Assembly (NCBI RefSeq): GCF_006442545.2
Contig: NZ_CP083952.1
Span: 2,659,501 to 2,723,500, forward strand
Direction of reading: 5' to 3'
Source: Mesorhizobium sp. B2-1-8
GTDB lineage: Bacteria; Pseudomonadota; Alphaproteobacteria; Rhizobiales; Rhizobiaceae
Length of the DNA stretch: 64,000 nt
Part shown: piece after piece, positions 602 to 13,898 of the stretch
Position numbering within the stretch: position 1 is the first letter of the stretch
How the letters are laid out: each line of letters opens with the position of its first letter
Notes under the pieces: model-generated
What the model saw: only the letters and a program-made list of their open reading frames with translations
Databases searched by the model: none
Told to the model about the DNA's origin: nothing
Position numbers and translations under genes: made by a program

Positions 602-2866
602 ATGAATTTCGATCCGCGTTTTTCAGGGCGTAAATTCGCTTCCGTCGGCACGCGCCCGATCCGTCCCGACGGTGTCGACAAGGTGACCGGCCGCGCCCGC
701 TATGGCGCCGACTTCAACATGGCCGGCCAGCTGGTCGGCCGCGTGCTGCGCAGCCCACACGCGCATGCGAAAATCCGGAAGATCGACACTTCGAAGGCGG
801 AAGCGCTTGCCGGCGTGAAGGCGGTGATCACCGCTGCCGACCTGCCTGATCTCACCGATGGCGATGCCGCCATGTACGACATCCTCGACAATTGCATGGC
901 GCGCACCAAGGCGCTCTATGACGGCCATGCGGTGGCAGCCGTCGCCGCGATCGATGCCCACACGGCCAGGCAGGCGCTGAAGCTGATCGTGGTCGACTAT
1001 GAGGTGCTGCCGCATGTCACCGATGTCGACGAGGCGATGCAGCACCACGCCCCCCTGATCAACGACGCGATCTTCACCGAGGGGCTGGAGGAAAAGCCGG
1101 TCAAGGCGTCCAACGTGACCAAGCGCTCGCAGTTCGGCCATGGCGACGTCCATCAGGGTTTCGGCCACGCCGATTTCATCGTCGAGCGCTCGTTCAAGAC
1201 CGAGCAGACGCACCAGGGCTATATCGAGCCGCATGCCTGCGTGGCCAATGTCAGCACCGACGGCACCGCCGACCTCTGGGTCTGCACGCAGGGCCATTTC
1301 GTCTACCGCCAGCACTGCGCGCAGCTGCTCGGCATGGAAGCCTCGAAGCTGCGCGTCACCTCCTCGGAGATCGGCGGCGGTTTCGGCGGCAAGACCCATG
1401 TCTGGGCCGAGCCGGTGGCGCTCGCTCTGTCGCGCAAGGCCGGACGCCCGGTGAAGCTGGTGATGACCCGCGACGAGGTGTTCCGCGCCTCGGGCCCGAC
1501 CAGCGCCACCTCGATCGACGTCAAGATCGGCGCCCGCAAGGACGGCACGATCACGGCGGCCGAAGCGACGCTGCGTTACACAAGCGGCCCCTATGCCGGC
1601 ACCTGGGCCGAGATCGGCGCCATGACGGCGTTCGCCTGCTACAGGCTCGACAACGTCAAGACGGTGGGCTTCGAAGTGCTGGTCAACCGGCCGAAGACCG
1701 CCGCCTACCGCGCGCCGTCGGCGCCGATGGCGGCCTTCGCGGTGGAAAGCACCGTCGACGAGCTCGCCAAGGAGCTCGGCATGGATCCGGTCGAGTTCCG
1801 CATCAGGAACGCCGCCCAGGAAGGCACGCGGTCGTCCTACGGCCCGGTCTACGGGCCGATCGGCATCGGCCCGACGCTGGAAGCGGTGAAGAACCACGCG
1901 CACATGAAGGCGCCGCTCAAGGCAAACCAGGGGCGCGGCATGGCCTGCGGCTTCTGGTTCAATTTCGGCGGCCAGACCTGCACCGACCTGAACATCGGCA
2001 TGGACGGCTCGGTCTCGCTCGCCGTCGGCACGGTCGATGTCGGCGGGTCCCGCGCCTCGCTGTCGCTGGTGGCGGCGGAGGAGCTCGGCATCGCCTATGA
2101 GCAGGTCAAGGCCATCGTCGCCGACACGTCGAGCCTCGGCTACAACGACATGACCGACGGCAGCCGCGGCACCTTCTCGTCCTCGATGGCGACGATCTCG
2201 GCCGCCCGCAACGCGATAAAAATCCTGCGCGAGCGCGCCGCGCAGATGTGGGATATCTCGGTCGACGACGTGGTCTGGGAACAGGGCCACGCGGTCGCCA
2301 AGGGCGAGAAGCACGGCAATCTCGGCAAGCTGTCGCTGAAGGAGATCGCGGCGCAATCCGGCAAGACCGGCGGGCCGATCGCCGGCCACAGCGAGCTCGT
2401 CGCCGACGGCGCCGGCGTCTCCTTCGCCACCCATATATGCGACGTCGAGGTCGACCCCGAGACGGGTTCGACCAGGGTGATCCGCTACACGGTGGTGCAG
2501 GATGCCGGCAAGGCGGTGCACCCGACCTATGTCGAGGGCCAGTACCAGGGCGGTGCGGCGCAAGGCATAGGCTGGGCGCTCAACGAGGAGTATATTTACG
2601 GCAAGGACGGCCGGCTGCAGAACGCCGGCTTCCTCGACTACCGCATCCCGGTCTGCTCCGACCTGCCGATGATCGACACGCAGATCCTGGAAATCCCCAA
2701 CCCCAACCACCCCTATGGCGTGCGCGGCGTCGGCGAAACCTCGATCGTGCCGCCGCTGGCGGCGATCGCCAACGCGGTCTCGAACGCGGCGGGCGTGCGC
2801 ATGACCCACATCCCGATGTCGCCGCCCCGCATCCTGGCGGCGATCGAGGCGGAACGGGAAGGCTAG
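602..2866 (+). CDS. Molybdopterin-binding large subunit of molybdenum hydroxylase (xanthine dehydrogenase family)
   Basis: A 754-residue catalytic subunit. The N-terminal a/b hammerhead domain (about residues 15-125) is followed by the Mo-cofactor domains. GGGFGGKTH lies near residue 262, and the Mo-site glutamate is expected in GVRGVGETS near residue 705. The active-site loop near residue 364 reads AYRAPSAP. It lacks the AYRCSFR signature of true form I CO dehydrogenase, so CO oxidation is unlikely; an aldehyde, purine or aromatic CoA-ester hydroxylase is more plausible. It follows the 2Fe-2S subunit by one base and precedes a MoaD-like gene. The order FAD, FeS, Mo matches the coxMSL arrangement. 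Confidence 0.92.
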   Translation: MNFDPRFSGRKFASVGTRPIRPDGVDKVTGRARYGADFNMAGQLVGRVLRSPHAHAKIRKIDTSKAEALAGVKAVITAADLPDLTDGDAAMYDILDNCMARTKALYDGHAVAAVAAIDAHTARQALKLIVVDYEVLPHVTDVDEAMQHHAPLINDAIFTEGLEEKPVKASNVTKRSQFGHGDVHQGFGHADFIVERSFKTEQTHQGYIEPHACVANVSTDGTADLWVCTQGHFVYRQHCAQLLGMEASKLRVTSSEIGGGFGGKTHVWAEPVALALSRKAGRPVKLVMTRDEVFRASGPTSATSIDVKIGARKDGTITAAEATLRYTSGPYAGTWAEIGAMTAFACYRLDNVKTVGFEVLVNRPKTAAYRAPSAPMAAFAVESTVDELAKELGMDPVEFRIRNAAQEGTRSSYGPVYGPIGIGPTLEAVKNHAHMKAPLKANQGRGMACGFWFNFGGQTCTDLNIGMDGSVSLAVGTVDVGGSRASLSLVAAEELGIAYEQVKAIVADTSSLGYNDMTDGSRGTFSSSMATISAARNAIKILRERAAQMWDISVDDVVWEQGHAVAKGEKHGNLGKLSLKEIAAQSGKTGGPIAGHSELVADGAGVSFATHICDVEVDPETGSTRVIRYTVVQDAGKAVHPTYVEGQYQGGAAQGIGWALNEEYIYGKDGRLQNAGFLDYRIPVCSDLPMIDTQILEIPNPNHPYGVRGVGETSIVPPLAAIANAVSNAAGVRMTHIPMSPPRILAAIEAEREG

Positions 2867-2882
2867 GGCAGGGCAAGCGGCG

Positions 2883-3128
2883 ATGGTCGAAGTCACCCTC
2901 TGGGGCGCGCTTGGCCAGGTCGCCGGAGGCAGAAGCAAGGTCGAGGTCGAGGCCAAGGACATAAGGGAGCTGTTCAGGAAACTGGCTGAACAGTATCCCG
3001 GCCTGGAGCCGTGGATCGACCGCGGGATCGCGGTGGCGATCGACGGGACGATTTATCGGGATACGTGGTCGAAGGAGTTGCCGCCGGGGGCGGAGATATT
3101 TTTGTTGCCGAGATTGGCTGGGGGGTGA
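2883..3128 (+). CDS. MoaD/ThiS family sulfur-carrier-like protein
   Basis: An 81-residue beta-grasp protein ending in a Gly-Gly pair (LPRLAGG), the hallmark of MoaD and ThiS sulfur carriers that are thiocarboxylated at the terminal glycine. It begins 16 bases after the large-subunit gene of the Mo hydroxylase and is probably cotranscribed. A dedicated role in making or sulfurating the molybdenum cofactor of that enzyme is inferred from position. It may differ from the housekeeping MoaD, since no moaE or moeB gene is beside it. The following sequence to about 3230 shows no gene and marks the left edge of the defence operon. Confidence 0.82.
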   Translation: MVEVTLWGALGQVAGGRSKVEVEAKDIRELFRKLAEQYPGLEPWIDRGIAVAIDGTIYRDTWSKELPPGAEIFLLPRLAGG

Positions 3129-3229
3129 GGGGCTGTCGGCTTGCGTCAGGTCTCACACATCTTGGTAGTGCCGTTAGCGGACCGGCGGGTTTTGCAGTAC
3201 CCCCTGGAGCGGACAATCCTTGGAACGCG

Positions 3230-3243
3230 ATTCTAATTAGAAT
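3230..3243. repeat. 14-bp perfect palindrome at the end of the HNH gene
   Basis: ATTCTAATTAGAAT is a perfect palindrome that overlaps the stop codon of the minus-strand HNH nuclease gene. It is too A+T-rich to be a strong terminator and has no T-tract. A near-identical palindrome, ATTCTAGTTAGAAT, occurs at 34059-34072 in front of the YeiH gene. Whether either binds a protein is unknown. Confidence 0.4.
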
Positions 3244-4315
3244 ACTCGACGAAATTCCAAAGCCACTGCCTGACGTCTTCGCCAATCTCTGGATCGTTGC
3301 AGGACCGATCTAGTAGTCGGAAGGCTTCCGCCTTTAAAAACGCACGGTCTGCATACCCGTCTTGAACTACGCCTTCGATGTATCGTGGGACCTCCGCTGC
3401 TACTTGATCAGCAGTTTGATCTCTTCCCTTTTCAACCAAGAACCACTTGCTGTAGTGGCCAATCCAAGAGAGGAAGTCAGCATCAAGAACGTCTCGTGAA
3501 TATCTGAGCTTGATTTGATAAACGCTATTCCATGTTTCAGCTCTATCCAGCTCGTCGCCCACAATATTGATATTCCAGCGCGGCAAGGTATAGCCCCCAA
3601 CCTCATTGCCGATGAAAAATTCGCTCCCCTCTAGCGTGATACGGTAGGTAGGCCCGAGGTACGGATCTGAGCAGCGGCGCCTCAGTCCGCCACCTCCTGT
3701 GAGGATGTCGGTACTGCCTTTGTACGTCGAATTGCATTCGTCGCACGCTGGTGGGAGGTTGCGTAGGTCGGCAGCGGCAAACGGATATATCGAAATCGGC
3801 AACAGATGGTCGAGTGCATGACGTGGTGCACCGGGAGCCCGAAAGTAATTCAGGCCGCAAAACGGACACTGCCTAATGTTAGCAGCGTAAATAGTGCCGT
3901 ACTGATTGTCCCGAAGGAAGCCATTCCCCTCTTTGATACTAGCTAGCTGACCGAAGAGATATACTGCCAGCGCGCGCGCGGGCGCTCTGATTGAAAGCGG
4001 GAGGGTATCGATGGTCGGGCAAAAGGCGTTATCGTTGAAAACGTTCGGCAAGGCCGTCTGTCTCATGATTGCCGCGCGAACGGGCGGCCGCTCTTGGGCG
4101 GGTAGCTCAGAATATTTTAGCAAGAAACTCGCAAGCTTTGATCTCAAACCGGTACGCTGTGCTAAAATCTCGCGCCGGCCCTCTGGCAGGCATTCCGGCC
4201 AGCTCTCGGGCTCGGCGTTAGCGTCAATCGCATCCATTCCCGCCAACATCACGTCAACAGCCGAGGTGTTCAGCCAATTGGCGCCCAATGCTTCAATCGG
4301 GTAGGAAAACAGCAT
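3233..4315 (-). CDS. HNH endonuclease, last gene of the hsdM-hsdS-ATPase-HNH defence operon
   Basis: A 360-residue protein with a central HNH/McrA-like nuclease fold. A zinc knuckle is formed by CPFC (150-153) and CDEC (191-194), with the catalytic DH at 169-170 and Asn 195 in CDECN. The N-terminal 140 residues and the C-terminal 150 residues match no family I recognise and may be target-binding or partner-binding regions. The start lies one base after the ATPase stop, so the two are translationally coupled. An ATPase/HNH pair recalls the PtuA-PtuB pair of Septu and the effector module of retron Ec78. Here it follows hsdS where hsdR would be expected, so it is a candidate cleavage subunit. 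The gene is clearly lower in G+C than its flanks. Confidence 0.85.
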   Translation of the reverse strand: MLFSYPIEALGANWLNTSAVDVMLAGMDAIDANAEPESWPECLPEGRREILAQRTGLRSKLASFLLKYSELPAQERPPVRAAIMRQTALPNVFNDNAFCPTIDTLPLSIRAPARALAVYLFGQLASIKEGNGFLRDNQYGTIYAANIRQCPFCGLNYFRAPGAPRHALDHLLPISIYPFAAADLRNLPPACDECNSTYKGSTDILTGGGGLRRRCSDPYLGPTYRITLEGSEFFIGNEVGGYTLPRWNINIVGDELDRAETWNSVYQIKLRYSRDVLDADFLSWIGHYSKWFLVEKGRDQTADQVAAEVPRYIEGVVQDGYADRAFLKAEAFRLLDRSCNDPEIGEDVRQWLWNFVEYSN

Positions 4316-4316
4316 T

Positions 4317-5912
4317 CTAGGCTTGGCTTTTCAGCTTTCGCAGATGATCCGCCAGAAGAGCTTTTCCGATAGACGGCCCGAGCTCCCTAAAACCATCTTC
4401 TATCTCTTCGATGTCATCCGATTTCAAGAGTTTCGCGATTTCTTTCTCGGCAATGTGCGAATTGGGAGGGCGGATATCGAAACAGCTTTCTAGAATGCGA
4501 TCGAAAGTTGTTCCAAAGGTCTCAATTTTCGGGTCTTTGACATTGAACTTGCCTGATGCTTCATCTCTGGAGAAGATCATGACCTGATCTCTCGGCATGT
4601 CCGAAGGTACAAACGGCGCATGGGTCGTGAGCAGGAATTCCTGATTGCCGCGACTTCCCACCATTTTCATTAATTGTTGAACGAATTCTACGCGCCATTT
4701 CGGGTTAAAATGCGATTCAGGCTCGTCGAGCAGGAAAATCGCGTTCGTGTCAGCGATCATGGCATAGGTGCCTAGGATCAGCGCTTGCTGATGCTCACCG
4801 TCAGAGAGGGAGACATAGTCAACGGCGCCCGACTTATGTCCCTCGGGCCAGAAGCGGACTTCCTCGAAGCTGAAGACCATGTCCTCCTGTTGCGGCTCGG
4901 GCAGTCTGGAGGCAAATCGTCGTTCCTTCACGGCTTTGTCGAACCGGCGTCGTGCGGTGCGCGGGATGGCTAGATCGTTCAGTAGGGCAAGCTTGTGCAG
5001 AGACCGGTAAAGCGTGAAGGCCTCATCCCAGAAGTGGGCGAATGCCTCTCGGGTCGCGTCCGTGATCAGAAAATCGAATGTGTAAGTCTCCGTTTTCTCG
5101 TTGACGTGCCAGCAGGTTGCGGTGCGCTGGAGATGAGCGATAACGGTCTCAAGTTCGTCGGTAAGCTGGATACCCTTGCGCGCCAAGGTGCGCCTCTTGG
5201 ATTTCGGGATTTTGGGAACGGCGGAATGCGCAAGGCGCACGATACATCGGCAGGAGGCAAGATCGCCCAGGCGGGCGTGTCGCAGAAGCTCCTTTCTAAT
5301 GTGGGTCGAACCCAGCATGAGATTGGAGAACAGGACCTCAAGGTTGGTGCCATAGTCGATAAGCATCAACTTGTTATCCGGAATCGCCTTTGCATTTCCT
5401 TTGAGTGCTGCAGTTGCGACATCGCCAGCGTATCCGCTTCGGCTGGCGAGAAAGGGTAAGCTTAAGGTTTCATTGTCTCCAGACGTATACCCAACGATCA
5501 AAGACGGCAGAAACTGACCGAACGCTGGTTCTTTTGATCTTATGATCTGTCCGTCGGCACGGATAAGTTCAATCGGTCCCGGCTTCTTGCCCTTCAGCGC
5601 CCTAACGAGACGCACGGTCTCATGATCGTCCCCGTGAGCGGGTTTGATCATGTATTCGAGGTCAAAGAGTACCGCGTCGTTAGCGCTGCGTCGCTCCTCC
5701 GTAGGCGCGTGCTCATGCCATGCTGCCTGGAAAATTTCTGCGATCAGTTGGAGGAACTGAGATTTGCCCGATCCGTTCGGGCCAATCATACAAAGCGGCG
5801 CAAGTGGTTCGCCATCCTTACCGTCATTGCCGCGGCCAAACCAGACCTCCGTGCCGTCAAAGAGCCCGCCGCCGGTTCCCGATCGCTCTATCTTGAGCAG
5901 CCTCAGCCTCAT
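4317..5912 (-). CDS. AAA/ABC-type ATPase associated with a restriction system
   Basis: A 531-residue OLD/RecF/SMC-like ATPase. The Walker A motif GPNGSGKS is at 44-51, an ABC-like signature LSDGEHQQ at 369-376, Walker B IFLLDEPES at 392-400, and an H-loop TTHAPF at 429-434. The middle (about 60-360) is the lobe that in SMC-like proteins carries a coiled coil or specificity region. There is no TOPRIM domain at the C-terminus, so it is not an OLD nuclease; nuclease activity would come from the HNH partner. Its ATG overlaps the hsdS stop by four bases. NCBI describes restriction-system-associated AAA ATPases next to type I loci, and this gene fits that description; PtuA of Septu is an alternative relative. 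Confidence 0.87.
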   Translation of the reverse strand: MRLRLLKIERSGTGGGLFDGTEVWFGRGNDGKDGEPLAPLCMIGPNGSGKSQFLQLIAEIFQAAWHEHAPTEERRSANDAVLFDLEYMIKPAHGDDHETVRLVRALKGKKPGPIELIRADGQIIRSKEPAFGQFLPSLIVGYTSGDNETLSLPFLASRSGYAGDVATAALKGNAKAIPDNKLMLIDYGTNLEVLFSNLMLGSTHIRKELLRHARLGDLASCRCIVRLAHSAVPKIPKSKRRTLARKGIQLTDELETVIAHLQRTATCWHVNEKTETYTFDFLITDATREAFAHFWDEAFTLYRSLHKLALLNDLAIPRTARRRFDKAVKERRFASRLPEPQQEDMVFSFEEVRFWPEGHKSGAVDYVSLSDGEHQQALILGTYAMIADTNAIFLLDEPESHFNPKWRVEFVQQLMKMVGSRGNQEFLLTTHAPFVPSDMPRDQVMIFSRDEASGKFNVKDPKIETFGTTFDRILESCFDIRPPNSHIAEKEIAKLLKSDDIEEIEDGFRELGPSIGKALLADHLRKLKSQA

Positions 5913-7552
5913 CGCGCCACCCTCTTAAGGAGCATGCGACCTTCATCCTTGTCGAACACCTGCACCAACTCGGGAGCTTTACCGCTCAGAAGCTCAAAGA
6001 GGGCATCGCGTACCGCGCCGTAGGGCAACACCACGCGTTGGACGATCGCCTCGAATGCCAGCCCCTTCTCCGGCCAATTGGCGCTGTCGGTCAAAAGTAC
6101 CTGCTTTGGATCCGTTTTCACTGTCTTCGCTCTCGGGCGCTTTGGACGCACTTCCATGACGGAGATGGTACTCGTCTCTCGTATACGATCCAGCATTTTG
6201 TCTGCCGGTTCCTCGCCGACATCCTGTTCGACCAGCTGTCCTGTGAAAGCCTTGGCGAGGATGCGCTGCTCCGCTCGACCGACGAGCCACAAGGAGCGTT
6301 CCACCTCGCGAGCGAGGTGGCTGACCCTAGAGAATGCGTCCTCGATCTGTCGTACGATTTCCCGCTGCTCCTCGAGCGGGGCGAGCTTAATGTTGAAGGC
6401 CCTGATCTCAGGGAAATATATGGTCGTGTGGGTAGTTCCTCGTCCAAAATTGCGAATGTCATCACCTTCGGAAAGCAAGGCGTACATAAGGTATTTGGGA
6501 TCGACGGCATCGGTGCAGGACCAGGTAGCGAAGTCTTGGCTCGTGGCCATCTCGCGGCCCATGATCGCGACATATCCGACCGACGCCGTGCGGGAAAGAA
6601 TGACAGTACCCGCCGGAAGTAGTCGCGCGGAGGAATTGGATAGTCCTGTGTCGTTGATTTTCTGGATTGTGTCATCGATCGTGCTCCCATGATGCCGATT
6701 GGCGTCAGGAATGCCGATCCATGGTACATCGCCGCCCCACCATTCGGGATGGGAACGACTTGGTGTGTGCCCGGTCTCTTGGCGCGCCACTCGCAGGAGA
6801 GGAACCCAGTCCCATCCAGTAGGGAGGACCGTGCCGGGATTATTGATCGAGATACCACCTCTGCCTTCGATGATTTCATTCGTCGCATGGCGCCCGCCAC
6901 GCGTCTGCTCGGGCTCGTCAATTCTCGCGAGAAGTTGCTCCACGGGCTCGAGCACTTGCTGCTTGCGAAACCCTGCCGTAAGTTCGCCCCGGAAGGCAGA
7001 CCGCAGGAGGTTGAGCTTGTAATACTCGACCAACGGTGAAATCTTTTGCAGTTCGCTGCGCGAGAGGTCAACGCGCGAGCTCAGTTCATCGAGCCGCGCC
7101 ACAATCCGGCGTTGCTCGGACACTGGCGGGATGGCGGCCGAATAGCCTTCGATATGGTGCTTTGAAAGTCCCGGGATGTCGCCGTGGGCGTTCTCGATGA
7201 TCTCTTCTGCACGGTAGGCGATCGTCCTTAGAATGAATTGAAAGTCTAGTTCAGCGCTGGGTTGATAGGCATAGATATCTCGCCCGATCGCGGCGGGAAT
7301 GCCCGGGAAGGTTTTGCCCACGCCGGCGCCCTTAACCGTGATAAAGATGCAGCCTTCGGGAACCACCCGCTTGGGGTCGGTCGTCCATTTCGGCTTGTGG
7401 AACGCGCTACCATCCCACTGCTCAGGTCCGGTTACATAGCTGGTTCCCCGCCCCTCCTGGTTGACGGTGTCAGCGCTCGGTGACTGTCCTGTATGCAAAA
7501 CGCCGATGTCGCCTAGCCTCGCTCGAGCCCATCCGGCTGGAAGCTCATTCAT
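5909..7552 (-). CDS. hsdS: Type I restriction-modification specificity subunit HsdS
   Basis: A 547-residue specificity subunit that would dictate the bipartite DNA target of the methyltransferase. Two target-recognition domains are visible: TRD1 at about 1-150 (starts LPAGWARARLGDI) and TRD2 at about 240-390 (starts LPTGWDWVPL). Each is followed by the conserved helical spacer (PPVSEQRRIVARLDEL and APLEEQREIVRQIEDAF). A further 90 residues at the C-terminus (basic linker RPKRPRAK, then a globular part ending near DKDEGRMLLKRV) extend beyond the minimal HsdS. The ATG start is fixed because an in-frame stop lies seven codons upstream. It overlaps the ATPase gene by four bases and a 46-codon ORF at its 5' end. 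Confidence 0.93.
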   Translation of the reverse strand: MNELPAGWARARLGDIGVLHTGQSPSADTVNQEGRGTSYVTGPEQWDGSAFHKPKWTTDPKRVVPEGCIFITVKGAGVGKTFPGIPAAIGRDIYAYQPSAELDFQFILRTIAYRAEEIIENAHGDIPGLSKHHIEGYSAAIPPVSEQRRIVARLDELSSRVDLSRSELQKISPLVEYYKLNLLRSAFRGELTAGFRKQQVLEPVEQLLARIDEPEQTRGGRHATNEIIEGRGGISINNPGTVLPTGWDWVPLLRVARQETGHTPSRSHPEWWGGDVPWIGIPDANRHHGSTIDDTIQKINDTGLSNSSARLLPAGTVILSRTASVGYVAIMGREMATSQDFATWSCTDAVDPKYLMYALLSEGDDIRNFGRGTTHTTIYFPEIRAFNIKLAPLEEQREIVRQIEDAFSRVSHLAREVERSLWLVGRAEQRILAKAFTGQLVEQDVGEEPADKMLDRIRETSTISVMEVRPKRPRAKTVKTDPKQVLLTDSANWPEKGLAFEAIVQRVVLPYGAVRDALFELLSGKAPELVQVFDKDEGRMLLKRVAR

Positions 7553-7685
7553 GGCGCCAGTGTTCCCGCCTCAACGTGCCCCCCGGCAAAGAAATTCTGG
7601 CTATCACCATCCCGCGCCGAACAGCTGCACGTGCAAAACGCTGGGAACTTGGTTCATTGGACATCGCTCGGGAAGGCATGCTCAT
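7545..7685 (-). CDS. Possible 46-residue protein bridging hsdM and hsdS
   Basis: A 46-codon ORF begins at an ATG that overlaps the hsdM stop (ATGA) and ends eight bases inside hsdS, so it exactly tiles the 129-base gap between the two genes. The product is basic (many Arg, starts MSMPSRAMSNEPSSQ) and has no motif I know. The overlaps at both ends suggest translation at least for coupling: ribosomes ending hsdM could re-start here and deliver to hsdS. It could equally be a chance ORF in a short spacer. No homology claim is made. Confidence 0.4.
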   Translation of the reverse strand: MSMPSRAMSNEPSSQRFARAAVRRGMVIARISLPGGTLRREHWRHE

Positions 7686-9100
7686 GAAGCGTGCTTAGGC
7701 TGAAGGTCTTCTGCTTCAACTTCCGAGCTCAGGGCATCGATCTCGCCCAGCGCTGAACGCAAGTGGCCGATTATTGCGATAAGGATTTCATTGGGATCCT
7801 GCATCTCGTCGTCTTGATCACTGCTCTCGTCACGGAGCCATAGCCAGTTGAGATTATCACCGCGCTCTGCAATGGCGTCCCGCGAAAGCCTGCGCCATCT
7901 GCCACTCTCGCCTTGTTCCCGGCGCTGTGTGGCACCTCCAGTATCAGCGCCGTACAGGTGCTCGAATTCTTCAAAATGGGAGTCGGTCAGCGCATTTGTT
8001 TTGCCAAATGCCGGCATGTTGGTGCGCAGGTCGTAGAACCAGACGCCGTCCGTCGCGACCCCGGCCTGCTTGCGGAAAAAGAGCACGTTGGTCTTGACCC
8101 CCGCTCCAGGAAAGATGCCCTTGGGAAGCCGGAGGATCGTGTGCAAGCTACACCTAGCCATCAGGTCCTGGCGTACGGACCTGCCGGCCCCATCTTCGAA
8201 CAACACATTGTCGGGAAGCACGACCGCAGCCCGACCGCCATCGTTGAGGGTCAGATAGATATGCTGAAGAAATGCCAGCTGCTTGTTCGTATTGCGGTAG
8301 GGGAAATCCGCTCGTAGTGCCCGCCGGCTTCCTGCCTTGCTCCCAAACGGCGGGTTCGCCAGCACTAGGCTTGCTGCGCCCAGCTCGCGACCGTCTTCAG
8401 TCAACGCGTCTCCGTGTATAATTTCAGCATCCAGACCGTTCAGGAACGTGTTCATCAAACATATTCTGCGGGTATTTTTTTCAATCTCGACCCCCTGATA
8501 TTTCGGGGGATTTTCCCGATAGGATTGTTCCGAACAATTTGAGCGAATGAAGCGGTCTGCGGAGATCAAAAACCCGCCGCTCCCGACAGCTGGATCTTGG
8601 ATCCGGTCACCTAAACCAGGCTTCGATACCCTGATCATAGAATTTACGAGCGCGCGCGGAGTAAAATACTGCCCCGCGCCAGATCGAACATCCTGAGAGC
8701 TTTTCTCGATTAGCCCTTCGTATATCTCACCAAATCGGTCACCGCTAACGTCATGCCAAGCGATTTTCGCGATCCCGTCAATAACGGCGTGGAGATTTTC
8801 CGAATGAGAGAAAACAGTAGTTGGAAAGGCGTAAATTGACCGGATGACCTCACTCTCAGCGCTAGCGCCAAGATGGGTCAACATTTCTTGATAGAAACCT
8901 AGAAGTCCCTCCTTTGGATGATTGACAAGGTCTTGCCAACGATAATTTATAGGAAGAAGTTTCTCAATCTCATTTTCTTCTGCAATCTTAAGGAAGAGGA
9001 GGTAGGTTAGTTCAGATACATATTGATGATAGCTAATTCCATCTCCACGAAGGATATGGCACAGAGCCCAAATCTTTTGGACGACGTTTTCGTTCTTCAT
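7682..9100 (-). CDS. hsdM: Type I DNA methyltransferase subunit HsdM (N6-adenine)
   Basis: A 472-residue modification subunit, first gene of the minus-strand defence operon. The HsdM N-terminal helical domain occupies about 1-130. QYFTPR is at 144-149, the AdoMet-binding motif I DPAVGSGGF at 169-177, and the catalytic motif IV NPPF at 249-252. These are typical of gamma-class N6-adenine methylases. With HsdS it should form a site-specific methyltransferase. No hsdR is present anywhere in the window. The downstream ATPase and HNH nuclease are therefore the only visible cleavage candidates. The gene is lower in G+C than the genes before 3128 and after 9741, suggesting horizontal acquisition. 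Confidence 0.93.
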   Translation of the reverse strand: MKNENVVQKIWALCHILRGDGISYHQYVSELTYLLFLKIAEENEIEKLLPINYRWQDLVNHPKEGLLGFYQEMLTHLGASAESEVIRSIYAFPTTVFSHSENLHAVIDGIAKIAWHDVSGDRFGEIYEGLIEKSSQDVRSGAGQYFTPRALVNSMIRVSKPGLGDRIQDPAVGSGGFLISADRFIRSNCSEQSYRENPPKYQGVEIEKNTRRICLMNTFLNGLDAEIIHGDALTEDGRELGAASLVLANPPFGSKAGSRRALRADFPYRNTNKQLAFLQHIYLTLNDGGRAAVVLPDNVLFEDGAGRSVRQDLMARCSLHTILRLPKGIFPGAGVKTNVLFFRKQAGVATDGVWFYDLRTNMPAFGKTNALTDSHFEEFEHLYGADTGGATQRREQGESGRWRRLSRDAIAERGDNLNWLWLRDESSDQDDEMQDPNEILIAIIGHLRSALGEIDALSSEVEAEDLQPKHAS

Positions 9101-9740
9101 TCTAACTGCAATCGCTCAAACTCGAAATAGGTCGCATCGCCGCTGTCCTGCTGGCACACGCCAGTGATCCTATCGCGGATAAGTCAAACTGGAAACGAGA
9201 GAATACGTATTTTCGCGCGAGATTTCTGATCTGGGCAGGGCGCGGCAATGCGCCACGCACTATCGTTCTTCGAGACGATTTTAACCGCACAGAGTGGCCG
9301 TTCGCATTGAGTTGGACTGCCCCTCAACAAACGGCCGGTTTCGAGGCCGAGGCCTTGGGCACAGGGGGATTGATCCTTGCTGAGCTCCAGATCACTGCGG
9401 CACACGACGATGGGGGCGCGCCTGACATCGAGCCGCGCCCGCAGCCATCCGCTCACGTCACAACAAAAACGTCTGTCTCTCCCTCAGGTCGCCGTGATCG
9501 CGCCAATACCCTCCTCGATCCCCCGCTTGCTCACCGATATCCCATGCCCCGCCGCGCCTTCGAGCATCGATCGCAACAACCCGCCTGGCCTACTAGATCT
9601 GCATCCTTCTCTGCCAAAGCGGCCAGAGTGCCCGCTTCTAGGCTCAGGGTTATCCGGTCATTCTCCGGCACCAGCTGGCAGCGGATCAGGTCTTCCAGCG
9701 CGCCGACGTCGCGCCCGTTCCCGCCGTTCCCGACCTTGCC
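9101..9740 (-). other. Island edge with degenerate coding remnants, no intact gene
   Basis: No complete gene is supported here. On the minus strand a frame from about 9720 reads DLIRCQLVPENDRITLSLEA and then shifts frame near 9590 into LLRSMLEGAAGHGISVSKRG, ending at 9484; this looks like the C-terminal end of a broken gene. A second frame runs 9456-9184, stops, and continues in the same frame after the TGA to GDATYFEFERLQLE, ending with an ATGA overlap at the hsdM start. Such an overlap is typical of operon genes, so a decayed gene may once have preceded hsdM. Neither fragment could be assigned to a family. Confidence 0.4.
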
Positions 9741-10706
9741 CTACGCCCCAAGCGCCCCAGCCGCCTGCGCCCGCAGATACGCCAGCGCTGCCACCGCCAG
9801 ATCCCCCACCGCCAGCCCCCGGAAAACAAACGCCGTGGTCTCGCCCGGCCCCTCCCGGCCCGCAAAATCACCGCAGACCAAACCCGTCAGGTCGCCGGCG
9901 ACCAGGCCGGGGTCGATCATGGGCTTGGCCATATTTCTCTCCTGCTCCAGGTCGTCGACGATGATGCGGTCGAAACGGGGCATCGTTTCGGGCAGCCAGG
10001 GCAGGGCCTGGTCGGTCATCACGGTGAAGCTTCCCGGCTTCAGCCAGTTCGCATCGAGGAATGGCGCGGGCCTGGGCACCAGGGTCACCGTCGTCACCAC
10101 CATGTCGGCGCCTTCGACCGCTTCCCTTGCCGTGTCGCATGGGATTGCTTGCAGCCCTCGCGAGCGTGCCATCTGGCACAGCGCGTCGCGATTGGCCGTG
10201 CCGCGGCCGTAGGCGCGGATTTCGCGCAAGGGGAAGAGGTCGGCGAAGGCTTCGAGGTGGCCGCGCGCCTGCACGCCGCAGCCGATGAAGGCCAGGGATG
10301 ACGCATCGCTGCTCGCCATGCGCCTGGCGGCGACGGCGCTCAAGGCGGCCGTGCGTTTCTCCGTCACCCAATTGCCGTCGACCAGGGCAAGCGGCAGGCC
10401 CGTTTCGGCGTCGAGCAGCGTGATCAGCGAATTCAGCCTGGGCAGTCCGCGCCCGGCGTTGCGCGGATTGACGACCAGCGATTTCGTGGCCAGCACGGGC
10501 GGCGTGGAGGCAACGCCGAGCGTCGCCATGATGTAGCGGTCGTCGCCCGGCAGCACCACCGCTTTCGGGGCGCACCAGACCTCGCCGCGCCGCTGGCCGA
10601 CGATCTGGCGTTCGATCTCGTCGACCATGTCGACTGTCGAGATCGACAGGCGGTCGAGCAGCGCGGATGACAGATAGGACAAGGTTTCGGCGGCCATGGA
10701 TTTCAT
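9741..10706 (-). CDS. Ornithine cyclodeaminase/mu-crystallin family protein
   Basis: About 321 residues, the usual length for this NAD(P)-binding family, which includes ornithine cyclodeaminase, alanine dehydrogenase and various ketimine reductases. The Rossmann motif reads FIGCGVQARGHLEAF, close to the family consensus GxGxQA, and the N-terminal half carries LVVNPRNAGRGLPRLNSL, where the substrate-binding residues lie. The exact substrate cannot be read off. The chosen ATG (MKSMAAETL) has GGGGA eight bases upstream; an in-frame ATG five codons earlier and another three codons later are possible. It ends at the right border of the defence island and is followed upstream by a DOPA dioxygenase-like gene on the same strand. 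Confidence 0.85.
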   Translation of the reverse strand: MKSMAAETLSYLSSALLDRLSISTVDMVDEIERQIVGQRRGEVWCAPKAVVLPGDDRYIMATLGVASTPPVLATKSLVVNPRNAGRGLPRLNSLITLLDAETGLPLALVDGNWVTEKRTAALSAVAARRMASSDASSLAFIGCGVQARGHLEAFADLFPLREIRAYGRGTANRDALCQMARSRGLQAIPCDTAREAVEGADMVVTTVTLVPRPAPFLDANWLKPGSFTVMTDQALPWLPETMPRFDRIIVDDLEQERNMAKPMIDPGLVAGDLTGLVCGDFAGREGPGETTAFVFRGLAVGDLAVAALAYLRAQAAGALGA

Positions 10707-10772
10707 CCTGTCATTCCCCATGGGTTATCAAACCCGCGAGAGGGCCAAACGGCCTTCTCATCGCGGCGCCCC

Positions 10773-11204
10773 TCACGCCCCCAGCGTCGGCTCCGTATTC
10801 ACCTCCAGCGCCTCTTCCGCCTCATGCTCCTCGCCAAGCACCTCCCCATGCACTTCCAACGGCCGGCCGATCCAGATCGGGTCGACCAGGTGGTCGCGCT
10901 TGGGGTTGGTGGTGTTGGGGTGGATGAGGATGCTCAAGCCCCGGTGGTTCAGCATCAGCCAGGGCACCAGCGTGGCGAAAATTTCTGTGGCGAAGGAGAC
11001 CTGGTACATGGCCTGCCCGTGCGGGCCGACTGGTCCGTCGTGCCAGTTGCCGAGGCGCACGCGGAAACGTTCGGCGATGCGCTGGCGCAGCCATTCGGCA
11101 TGCTGCCGCTCGGCCTGCCCGGCATAGTAGATATGGGCGTGGTAGCTGGCGATCTCGGCGAGCGGTCTGGGTTGCCCGGCCGGCGTTGAACTGGCTTCGC
11201 TCAT
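10773..11204 (-). CDS. DOPA 4,5-dioxygenase family protein
   Basis: A 143-residue protein of the DOPA_dioxygen family. YHAHIYY near residue 23, the GPHGQAMYQ segment (about 62-70) and LIHPNT near 94 supply the histidines expected for metal binding. Fungal and plant relatives open the catechol ring of DOPA; in bacteria the physiological substrate is usually unknown. It lies 67 bases upstream of the ornithine cyclodeaminase-like gene on the same strand and may form a two-gene unit with it. It is cytoplasmic, with no signal peptide. Confidence 0.83.
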   Translation of the reverse strand: MSEASSTPAGQPRPLAEIASYHAHIYYAGQAERQHAEWLRQRIAERFRVRLGNWHDGPVGPHGQAMYQVSFATEIFATLVPWLMLNHRGLSILIHPNTTNPKRDHLVDPIWIGRPLEVHGEVLGEEHEAEEALEVNTEPTLGA

Positions 11205-11411
11205 CTCGGTTCTTCCCCTGGTGACGCGTCTGGCGAAACTCTAGCCGAAGGACCGGCGCCTTGTCTGTAGCCGGTGCGGCCTGCGCCGAGATCGGCGACA
11301 AATGGCTGTGGGCACCGCGCAATGGTCGGCTATTCGATCGAATTTCTTTGCAACCCGTTAATGCGGCCATGCGTCAATAAGCGTCCGCTAATTATCGGTT
11401 CGGGATACGCA

Positions 11412-11555
11412 ATGACCAAGAATCTCGGCAATGGACGCTATGTCCCGCCCAAGGACACGAGCGTCTCCTTCTTCGGCAAGGTCGCGCCGACGCTGTTTCC
11501 GCTCGTCGCGGCGGCGCTGGGCTATATGATCGGGCGGCAGTTCTTCGGGCTGTAG
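11412..11555 (+). CDS. Small single-span membrane protein
   Basis: A 47-residue ORF (MTKNLGNGRYVPPKDTS...) ending in one hydrophobic helix followed by GRQFFGL. The N-terminal half is polar and would be cytoplasmic or periplasmic. The ATG at 11412 is preferred over longer upstream readings because composition becomes protein-like only from there; the ribosome-binding site is weak. It sits between two minus-strand genes and converges on the antiporter gene. The function is unknown. Confidence 0.5.
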   Translation: MTKNLGNGRYVPPKDTSVSFFGKVAPTLFPLVAAALGYMIGRQFFGL

Positions 11556-11567
11556 CACCGCAGGGCA

Positions 11568-13898
11568 TCAGGCGCCGGTCTCGGCCTCCTCGGCGCCGGC
11601 CTCCGTTCGCCTGACGCGGTCGCTGGCCAGAAGCACGACCGGGCAGGCGACGGCCGCCAGCACCGCGGTCGCCGTGTCGCCGAAGAACAGCTCGTCGCCT
11701 GGCCGCTGGGTGACGCCCATCACCACCATGGCGGCGCCCTTGGTCACCTCCCTGGCGATCGCCCTGTCTGGCGTGGCGCGCGTCCTGATCGCGGTCTCGA
11801 CGGCGACGCCATAGCGGTCGGCGAGATCGGCGACATCCTTGAGCACGGCCTCCTCGCGGCGGTGCGAAACCGTGCTTGGCCGGCTGCCCTTGCGGGCCTG
11901 CGAGACATAGAGGGCTTTCACGCGAGCCCGGTGCGGCCGCGCCAAGGCGAGCGCGAAATCGGCCGCGCGCCGCGCCACCTCGGTGCCATTGACGGGAACC
12001 AGGATGGTCGCGCCGGCGCGCAGCAACGGCATCTTGCCGCTGGATTTGGCGCCATTCAGCACCAGGCAGAGCGGGCCGTCGAAACCGCTGGTGATATCCT
12101 TCAGCGTACCGCTGAAGGTGCCTTTGTCGGTCATCGCGTTGTCCAGCCCGACCAGCAGCAGGCCGTAGCCCTTGCGGGCTTCGGCGGCGATCGTTTCGGT
12201 GGTGGCTTCAAGCTCGGTGCGGGCTGTCAGGTGGACCTTGTCGACCGGCGTATCTTCGGCCTTGCGGACGGCCCTGGCGCTTCTGGCGGCCCCCTTCTTG
12301 ACCTGCCGCGAAGCCTGCTCGGGACCTTTGTCGCGGACAGGGCCGGGCAGTTCCCCGCCCTCGAGGTGGAGCAGCGTGGTCGGCATGCCGCTGCCGCCGC
12401 CGACGAGACCGGCGAGATAGGCGGTGAACTTGCCGACCGGGCTGTCGTCGACGAGCAGCAGCAACCGCTCCAGCTTGGAGACGAAGCCGCGCTCGTCCAG
12501 CAGTTCGCGGTCGACGCGCTGCTTTTCCGCATTGCCGACCGGCAGCCGGCCGAGCGCCCAGCGCAGCATTGGCGGCATGGCCAGCGTGGTGATGACGGCC
12601 ATGGTGACGATCATCGTGAACAGATTGTGGGACAGGATGTTCATCGACAGGCCGATCGAGGCGACGATGACCTCGGTCGAGCCGCGCGCGTTCATGGCGC
12701 TGCCGACGGCGGTGGCCTCCTTCAGCGACATGCCGGACAGCCGGCCGCCGAGGAAGGCGCCCGAGAATTTGCCGATGCTGGCGATCAGCACCAGCGCCAG
12801 CGTCAGCAGCGCCAGCGTGGGGTCGGCAAGCACGGTGAGGTCGGCGGACAGGCCGGCCATGCCGAAGAACACCGGCATGAACAGCGCCGTGATGACGCCG
12901 CGCAACTGGCCCTCTATGTGGTCGGACAGGATCGGCGATTCCCCGACCAGTATGCCGGCGACGAAGGCGCCGAGCACGGTGTGCACGCCGATCAGATTGG
13001 TGATCAGCGCCATCACCCCCATGATGATGAGGATGACCGATATGACGGCGTATTCGCTGCGGAAGCTGTCGTTGCTCCAGCGGATCAGCGTGAACACCAG
13101 GCGGCGGCCGATGGTGAAGGAGAACAGCATGAACAGCGCCACTTCGGCGACCGTCAGCACCAATGGCAGCACCTGCAGGCTGCCATTGGTGGCGATGCCG
13201 AAGGTGACGGCGATGACCAGCCAGCCGATCGTGTCCTCGATGATGGCGGAGGAAACGATGATCTGGCCGAGATTGCGGCGCATGAAGTTCATCTCGCGCA
13301 CCACCATGGCGACGATCTTGACCGAGGAGATCGACAGCGCGGTGCCGAGGAACAGTCCGGCGACGATGCGCTCGGTCGGCTCGGGCAGAAGGGAATCCGG
13401 CAGCACCTGCGCCAGCGCGAAGCCGCAGGCAAAGGGCAGGACGACGCCGGTGATCGAGATCGAGAAGCAGGCGGCACCCACCCGCCGCACGAGGCGCAAA
13501 TCCGTCTCCATGCCGGTCAGCAGCAAGAGGAGCAGAATGCCGAGCTGCGAGACGGCATCGATCATGCTTTTCTGCGCGGGATCGGTGGAAAAGATCAGAT
13601 GCTGGGCGTCGGGCCAGAGCCAGCCGAACAGCGACGGCCCGAGCAGGATGCCGCCGATCAGCTGGCCCATGATCGCCGGCTGGCGATAGCGCTGGAAGAT
13701 CTCGCCGAGGCCGCGCCCGACCAGAAGCAGGAGGACGATCTCGGCAACGAACAGCCCTTCGGCCGAGCCGCCCATGCCAGAGGCGTGACCGGCCGGCTGC
13801 GCGGCCAGCGCATCGCTTGCCGCCGACGCCAGGACGAGAATTGCCAGCGAAAAGGCGACCGCAGCGCCGTGCGACCTCGTTGCCGTTAGGTGGATCAT
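11568..13898 (-). CDS. CPA2 cation:proton antiporter fused to UspA-like domains
   Basis: A 776-residue inner-membrane protein. After a signal-like first segment come about twelve membrane helices of the Na+/H+ exchanger (KefB/NhaS3-type) fold, roughly residues 45-440, with SIEDTIGW-like core residues (SSAIIEDTIGW) and the unwound-helix segment near HTVLGAFVAGIL. The C-terminal half is soluble and contains universal-stress-protein-like repeats (ILVPVNGTEVARRAADFALA, then VVMGVTQRPG near the end). These domains probably sense nucleotide or stress signals and gate monovalent cation/proton exchange. The ATG at 13898 has AAGGGA just upstream; a TTG four codons earlier is less likely. A DUF2270 membrane protein gene lies upstream on the same strand. 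Confidence 0.9.
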   Translation of the reverse strand: MIHLTATRSHGAAVAFSLAILVLASAASDALAAQPAGHASGMGGSAEGLFVAEIVLLLLVGRGLGEIFQRYRQPAIMGQLIGGILLGPSLFGWLWPDAQHLIFSTDPAQKSMIDAVSQLGILLLLLLTGMETDLRLVRRVGAACFSISITGVVLPFACGFALAQVLPDSLLPEPTERIVAGLFLGTALSISSVKIVAMVVREMNFMRRNLGQIIVSSAIIEDTIGWLVIAVTFGIATNGSLQVLPLVLTVAEVALFMLFSFTIGRRLVFTLIRWSNDSFRSEYAVISVILIIMGVMALITNLIGVHTVLGAFVAGILVGESPILSDHIEGQLRGVITALFMPVFFGMAGLSADLTVLADPTLALLTLALVLIASIGKFSGAFLGGRLSGMSLKEATAVGSAMNARGSTEVIVASIGLSMNILSHNLFTMIVTMAVITTLAMPPMLRWALGRLPVGNAEKQRVDRELLDERGFVSKLERLLLLVDDSPVGKFTAYLAGLVGGGSGMPTTLLHLEGGELPGPVRDKGPEQASRQVKKGAARSARAVRKAEDTPVDKVHLTARTELEATTETIAAEARKGYGLLLVGLDNAMTDKGTFSGTLKDITSGFDGPLCLVLNGAKSSGKMPLLRAGATILVPVNGTEVARRAADFALALARPHRARVKALYVSQARKGSRPSTVSHRREEAVLKDVADLADRYGVAVETAIRTRATPDRAIAREVTKGAAMVVMGVTQRPGDELFFGDTATAVLAAVACPVVLLASDRVRRTEAGAEEAETGA

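Follow-up and report, generated by a model that had tools for sequence, protein, structure and literature searches.

An hsdR-less HsdM-HsdS operon paired with a PtuA-like ATPase and a PtuB-like HNH nuclease in Mesorhizobium sp. B2-1-8

A single operon on the minus strand (9100-3233) of a 64,000-nucleotide stretch of Mesorhizobium sp. B2-1-8 (NZ_CP083952.1, positions 2,659,501 to 2,723,500; the whole stretch is called the window) encodes HsdM and HsdS, the modification and specificity subunits of a type I restriction-modification (R-M) system, followed by a PtuA-like ATPase and a PtuB-like HNH nuclease. The initial annotation of this DNA described the operon as lacking hsdR, and tblastn with two HsdR proteins indeed found none in the window. 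The same four genes recur in this order in other genomes, and the HsdS beside this ATPase-HNH pair carries a C-terminal winged-helix tail in every case (32/32). We consider it reasonably probable that the operon is a type I-like modification system in which a Septu-class effector, docked on HsdS and gated by methylation, occupies the place of HsdR.

The operon and its conserved gene order

The first gene (7682..9100, minus strand) encodes an HsdM-like N6-adenine methyltransferase of 472 residues, identified by profile scans (Pfam N6_Mtase at 4e-68 together with HsdM_N; 590 bits against PDLC03026), with the motifs DPAVGSGG and NPPF intact. It is followed by hsdS (5909..7552, minus), whose 547-residue product has two target-recognition domains (TRDs), with Methylase_S matching in two stretches at 1.5e-29, and ends in the winged-helix tail (residues 473-547 with linker; 5912..6136, minus), our proposed dock for the ATPase-HNH pair. 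The ATPase, a 531-residue ABC/AAA-type protein assigned by profile scans (4317..5912, minus), and the 360-residue HNH nuclease, recognised by homologue alignment and a structural model (3233..4315, minus), complete the operon. The spacing reported for this layout (successive overlaps of 4, 8 and 4 bases, then a 1-base gap) is arithmetically correct. It counts in a 46-residue open-reading frame (ORF) between hsdM and hsdS (7545..7685, minus), which the initial annotation took for a gene and which is probably none: in seven near relatives the interval between hsdM and hsdS varies in length and holds no common peptide in three frames, and in many relatives the two genes overlap by 4 bases with no ORF between them. 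This lack of conservation rules the ORF out as a component of the system.

The ATPase, previously left nameless, belongs to NCBI family TIGR04435 (394.5 bits against a cut-off of 300, residues 1-527 aligning to positions 1-566 of 568). Its Walker A, signature and Walker B motifs are intact, and both the Walker residues and the ATPase motifs are present in 35 of 35 aligned rows. It also matches the PtuA-type profile PDLC00293 (1.1e-39, residues 40-476) and, in a phmmer search of PDB chains, 'Retron Ec78 probable ATPase' (1.1e-8) and a chain named PtuA (1e-7). The family is rare, with matches at E 1e-30 in four of 398 genomes of the phylum, the window's own included, and only two of those four exceed the TIGR04435 cut-off. 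No Pfam or NCBIfam model matches the HNH protein; among PADLOC profiles it fits PDC-M62B best (7e-12), and the PtuB profiles match weakly (E 0.0015). There are 97 homologues in the protein collection; an alignment of 22 shows C150, C153, D169, H170, N186, C194, N195 and K199 without variation, the HNH aspartate and histidine being found in 39/39 rows and the asparagine in 38/39. The three best structural matches of the predicted model are all PtuB of retron Ec78; a Foldseek search with it yielded none at E 0.001 or better. The HNH protein has no counterpart in phage records, a nucleotide search with the HNH DNA of locus L012 yielded no match in E. coli genomes, and in the three named plasmid records inspected the HNH partner is annotated 'hypothetical protein'. 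The relationship of the ATPase to PtuA and the PtuB-like fold of the HNH model support a pair of the Septu/retron-Ec78 kind; the proposed tie between an HsdMS without HsdR and such a pair thus stands, leaving aside the short ORF.

A pattern scan with the HNH alignment across 84,980 genomes, one per species, returned 39 loci, 32 of which hold hsdM, hsdS, the ATPase and the HNH gene in this order on one strand; this recurrence rules out a chance neighbourhood. The other seven are contig ends or HNH fragments, which cannot show the cassette: L025, L026, L035, L039 and L041 start no more than about 1.2 kb from a contig end (which truncates the ATPase of L035, and in L026 no ATPase end is recognised in the 570 bases before HNH), and L015 and L044 are HNH fragments without an ATPase. 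Irregularities include a broken hsdM in L006 and L010, a split hsdS in L040 and one or two extra ORFs between hsdM and hsdS in a few loci (L009, L018, L034). The hosts are Proteobacteria, Cyanobacteria, Myxococcota and Chloroflexota, to which plasmids add one Bacillota and one Bacteroidota. An intact ATPase-HNH pair apart from hsdMS, a pattern that would have spoken for independence, was sought and not seen, as hsdM and hsdS accompany the ATPase in all 32 loci where it is intact. Pairwise distances of the ATPase, HsdM and HNH proteins correlate at 0.71 to 0.89 (33 rows), and none of 2000 permutations reached as high a value for any of the three pairs.

Several loci depart from the common arrangement. 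Locus L050 (G050 C1:826500-846000; 7353-13267, plus) has the rearranged order hsdS-ATPase (split)-HNH-hsdM with a tail-bearing HsdS, and no hsdR within 19.5 kb. Viral contigs contributed three loci, two of them weak and one (L072, a 46-kb IMG/VR contig filed as viral; 2521-11053) with a full set of hsdR, hsdM, hsdS, ATPase and HNH genes. Between hsdM and hsdS, plasmid pKN1 (L081, 5106-6823) and L018 (5106-6823) carry two further genes, of which one is annotated as a GIY-YIG nuclease in pKN1; L018 is without hsdR and pKN1 has one, and their nucleotide sequences become similar only within hsdM, a pattern resembling a joint exchange of hsdR and the front of hsdM. In the Allochromatium plasmid pALVIN01 (L085, 3634-4548) a gene annotated as an HNH endonuclease directly precedes hsdR-hsdM-hsdS, and it has no match to the HNH family of the window.

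HsdR and the HsdS tail across the family

The frequency of hsdR was determined in those loci that hold the cassette and more than 3.5 kb upstream of hsdM, or hsdR itself (28 of the 39); L017, L036, L040 and L042 were left out of the count because their contigs end too near hsdM. HsdR was absent beside hsdM in 20 of the 28 and lay directly upstream of hsdM in the remaining eight, as detected with A2, a profile of 11 HsdR rows to which seven of those same eight loci had contributed. PF04313 alone was rejected as a finder, since the HsdR of L009, an EcoEI_R_C protein and the only one of the eight run against Pfam, scores 24.3 bits against a cut-off of 25.1; EcoEI-type HsdR proteins lie near this cut-off, and A2 was therefore used as well. 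Two hsdR-less loci, L033 and L037, have a different type I locus with its own hsdM, hsdS and hsdR in the same stretch, in L037 immediately after the HNH gene, and L030 has another HsdR at a distance of 6 kb. Beyond the 39, hsdR accompanies the cassette in L049, L051, L072 and pKN1, and profile A2 found none in the Priestia and Hymenobacter plasmid records.

Whole-genome searches of the 32 cassette loci and the window's own genome (A2 at 1e-10, PF04313 at 0.001) found no HsdR by either profile in five of the 33 (L010, L013, L014, L036, L040). The genome of L014 (P. fluorescens FW300-N2E3) is titled complete and its four cassette genes are intact; that of L010 is also titled complete, but its hsdM is broken, and L036 and L040 are drafts with a contig ending near hsdM. 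Constant co-inheritance of hsdR with the cassette, in place or elsewhere, was accordingly not found.

The history of hsdR differs between the two trees. On the ATPase tree (33 rows), its presence requires 7 changes, no fewer than expected by chance (shuffled mean 7.2-7.3), while on the HsdM tree (33 rows, leaving out L006, L010, L049 and L050 and adding L051 and pKN1) it requires 5, against a shuffled mean of 8.4-8.5, with 2-3 of 500 shuffles as low. HsdM thus tracks HsdR and the ATPase does not, which suggests that hsdR and hsdM were exchanged together. The HsdM of the window falls in a clade of 12 rows, of which nine could be judged and are all hsdR-less; the clade has 100/100 support and a stem of 0.53 and spans several bacterial families. 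From this we infer that the window's HsdM comes from a lineage adapted to life without HsdR. Other hsdR-less loci, from cyanobacteria, lie elsewhere in the HsdM tree, suggesting more than one loss or omission of HsdR.

The winged-helix tail is a consistent mark of the HsdS proteins in this cassette. In a leave-one-out test with near relatives removed, the tail profile recovered 25 of 25 at 2.2e-14 or better, and among the 398 genomes it was found in two, one of them the window's own and both with the ATPase-HNH pair, compared to 189 with Methylase_S. In four loci with PtuA and PtuB genes, HsdS ends in a different tail, and the four best matches of a second profile made from that tail are the HsdS proteins of these four loci, two of which were its source. 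Two classical R-M-S relatives have an HsdS with neither addition. Sequence comparison revealed no kinship between the two tail types, and Foldseek returned nothing at E 0.001 or better for a model of the window-type tail. The tail probably joins HsdMS to the ATPase-nuclease pair, matching the type of pair encoded next door.

Comparison of close relatives reveals where HsdS varies. In the hsdR-less cyanobacterial loci L016 and L022, HsdM is 97%, the ATPase 90%, TRD1 99% and the tail 97% identical, and TRD2 is 18% identical; in L028 and L031, HsdM is 95%, the ATPase 89% and the tail 84% identical, and the TRDs 15% and 23%. Judged from these identities, target domains are swapped while the tail and the partner proteins stay, as one would predict if defence depends on which DNA sequence is recognised.

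Chromosomal slot and related systems

The operon occupies a variable slot (3134..9457) that is not shared with the four sister genomes examined, the unshared part extending to 9741 in three of them. It is bordered, as the initial annotation had noted, by housekeeping-like genes, on the left a ThiS-family gene (2883..3128, plus) and on the right a gene of the ornithine cyclodeaminase/mu-crystallin family (9741..10721, minus), both conserved in the four sister genomes. The DNA of the latter has matches in 14 of 31 genomes of the genus, several of them only short, and the slot was extracted from the four with a near full-length match, all of which keep the flanks and hold other content. In G071 it carries Avs2 (925 bits; L068, 3374-8041, minus), in G051 an HsdM-HsdS-PtuA-PtuB cassette (L071, 3422-8943, minus), in G448 an HD-domain phosphohydrolase, a nucleoside deoxyribosyltransferase-PfkB protein and others (L069, 3340-10606), and in G438 an 832-residue GHKL protein with two HATPase matches, a receiver-like protein and an Eco57I-type methylase (L070, 6162-11498, plus), a set that might be another uncharacterised methylase-linked system. 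The interval between thiS and the ornithine cyclodeaminase-family gene looks like a defence hotspot of the genus, and the presence of the known defence genes Avs2 and PtuA-PtuB in it supports a defence role for the operon by its place.

The HsdM-HsdS-PtuA-PtuB cassettes of G051, the Pseudoalteromonas plasmid NZ_CP032092.1 and G319 share the architecture of the window operon and likewise have no adjacent hsdR. The plasmid HsdM is 56% identical to that of the window, with the segment FPTTVF common to both. The cassettes differ from the window in having standard PtuA and PtuB families and the other HsdS tail. The G051 genome has no match to profile A2, the ATPase reading frame of G319 is broken, and in a fourth such cassette, in G512, hsdR is present.

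Among the closest described systems is Septu, with which the window shares a PtuA-type ATPase and two adjacent genes in the order ATPase then HNH; the window pair differs in being bound to HsdM-HsdS and is not a stand-alone two-gene operon. The Walker and HNH residues that an anti-phage activity of this kind would need are present in the window. Retron Ec78 (type I-A) is ruled out, as the operon has no reverse transcriptase ORF, the window has no Rfam match and the PtuA equivalog reaches 51 of 500 bits. With type I R-M of the EcoEI-like kind (R-M-S) the operon has HsdM and HsdS in common, and hsdR, in the loci that have it, sits immediately upstream of hsdM; the window differs in having no HsdR in the locus and an extra tail on HsdS. 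HsdM and HsdS also resemble mad2 and mad5 of MADS, and the ATPase weakly resembles MAD3, but the scores (73.7 of 720 for MAD2, 26.5 of 420 for MAD3) fall well short of the curated cut-offs and exclude membership. The AriA model of PARIS matches the ATPase at 1.6e-14 over residues 332-435 only, and the partner here is HNH as against the TOPRIM protein AriB.

The name of TIGR04435, restrict_AAA_1 (restriction system-associated AAA family ATPase), already records a link with restriction loci; it names one protein only, and the HNH partner has no such model. No paper naming TIGR04435 or 'restriction system-associated AAA' was found in the literature search. In PMC12839542, which cites 10.1093/nar/gkaa726, OLD-type ABC ATPases are described as coupled to various nucleases, HNH included, in RM-like loci. 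In the portions of the literature covered, outside which 10.1093/nar/gkaa726 itself lies, no description of the M-S-ATPase-HNH form was found, nor any mention of an effector-linked HsdS tail.

Proposed mechanism, alternatives and implications

In the mechanism that we favour, an HsdM2S complex would methylate its target on host DNA and so mark self. On reaching an unmethylated, and hence foreign, target, the complex would signal via the C-terminal winged helix of HsdS, on which the PtuA-like ATPase would be docked, and the ATPase would then license the PtuB-like HNH nuclease to cut. The docking, the trigger, the substrate and the role in phage defence are the parts that we infer. Related pairs act on different substrates: according to PMC11555353 and PMC13096335, one Septu cuts nicked DNA, retron Eco7 PtuAB and Septu EcB88 cut tRNA-Tyr and deplete it, and the retron Eco4 pair lowered no tRNA. 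If this mechanism applies, the cut would be somewhat more likely to fall on DNA, and otherwise on tRNA, which would make the defence abortive.

The main rival, to which we give a minor but real share of the probability, is a guard resembling PrrC or PARIS, in which the pair would watch HsdMS and a phage anti-restriction protein inhibiting HsdMS would free the nuclease to cut tRNA and abort infection. The tRNA-Tyr depletion just described fits this, as does PrrC, which belongs to a type IC locus and becomes active upon inhibition of EcoPrrI by T4 Stp (PMC12707154), and the eight loci that keep hsdR are what a guarded complete system would look like. A bait, however, needs neither methylation nor new specificity, whereas all 34 aligned HsdM rows retain NPPF and TRDs are swapped within an hsdR-less clade, and the other 20 loci have no HsdR beside hsdM left to guard.

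It is improbable that the operon is an ordinary type I system served by an HsdR in trans, with the ATPase-HNH pair as an accessory. The window's own genome does encode HsdR at two other loci. One (L052, C2:219000-238500; 4853-13207, plus) encodes a 1072-residue HsdR in a type I set in which a DUF6119 gene separates hsdS from hsdR and a YgjP-like metallopeptidase gene follows hsdR; the other (L053, C1:2130500-2150000; 5506-12997, minus) encodes a 796-residue EcoEI-type HsdR, then HsdM, a 592-residue HsdS without the tail and a 618-residue AAA_15/AAA_21 ATPase after which no HNH is recognised. In the L011 genome, too, a different contig encodes an EcoEI-type HsdR. Each of the two HsdR genes in the window's genome, however, adjoins its own hsdM and hsdS in a separate locus, the five genomes without any detected HsdR had already weakened this explanation, and the HsdM of the window sits in the supported clade whose judged members are all hsdR-less.

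About equally improbable is a Septu-like defence that moves along with an orphan regulatory methylase and acts apart from it. A Septu does work as PtuA-PtuB alone, according to PMC13096335, but no intact pair was seen without hsdMS, the protein distances are correlated and the HsdS tails match the effector type. A decayed type I locus on its way out, suggested by the damaged hsdM and hsdS genes of L006, L010 and L040, is already disfavoured and the least likely of all, as the four genes of the window are open with motifs intact, tblastn found no hsdR remnant upstream of hsdM in any of the 20 hsdR-less loci, and the long-stemmed hsdR-less HsdM clade spans several bacterial families.

Tentatively, HsdS may be a modular adaptor and type I methylases a general, sequence-programmable, methylation-gated sensor that accepts different effectors (HsdR, TIGR04435-HNH, PtuA-PtuB), with a cognate C-terminal winged-helix tail of HsdS for each ATPase-nuclease pair; HsdR would then be one choice among several and have been replaced repeatedly, and the output in the window's branch may be tRNA cleavage. 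Should the latter be true, this would be a restriction system without hsdR that stops the host cell and does not cut the invader. The co-occurrence with a restriction-associated ATPase becomes a testable rule, namely that the HsdS tail predicts the effector. If the favoured mechanism is right, methylation-based self recognition would be separable from DNA translocation, the sensor of Septu-type pairs would be defined for at least one setting, and hsdMS genes taken for 'orphan' ones beside a hypothetical protein may be complete defence systems.

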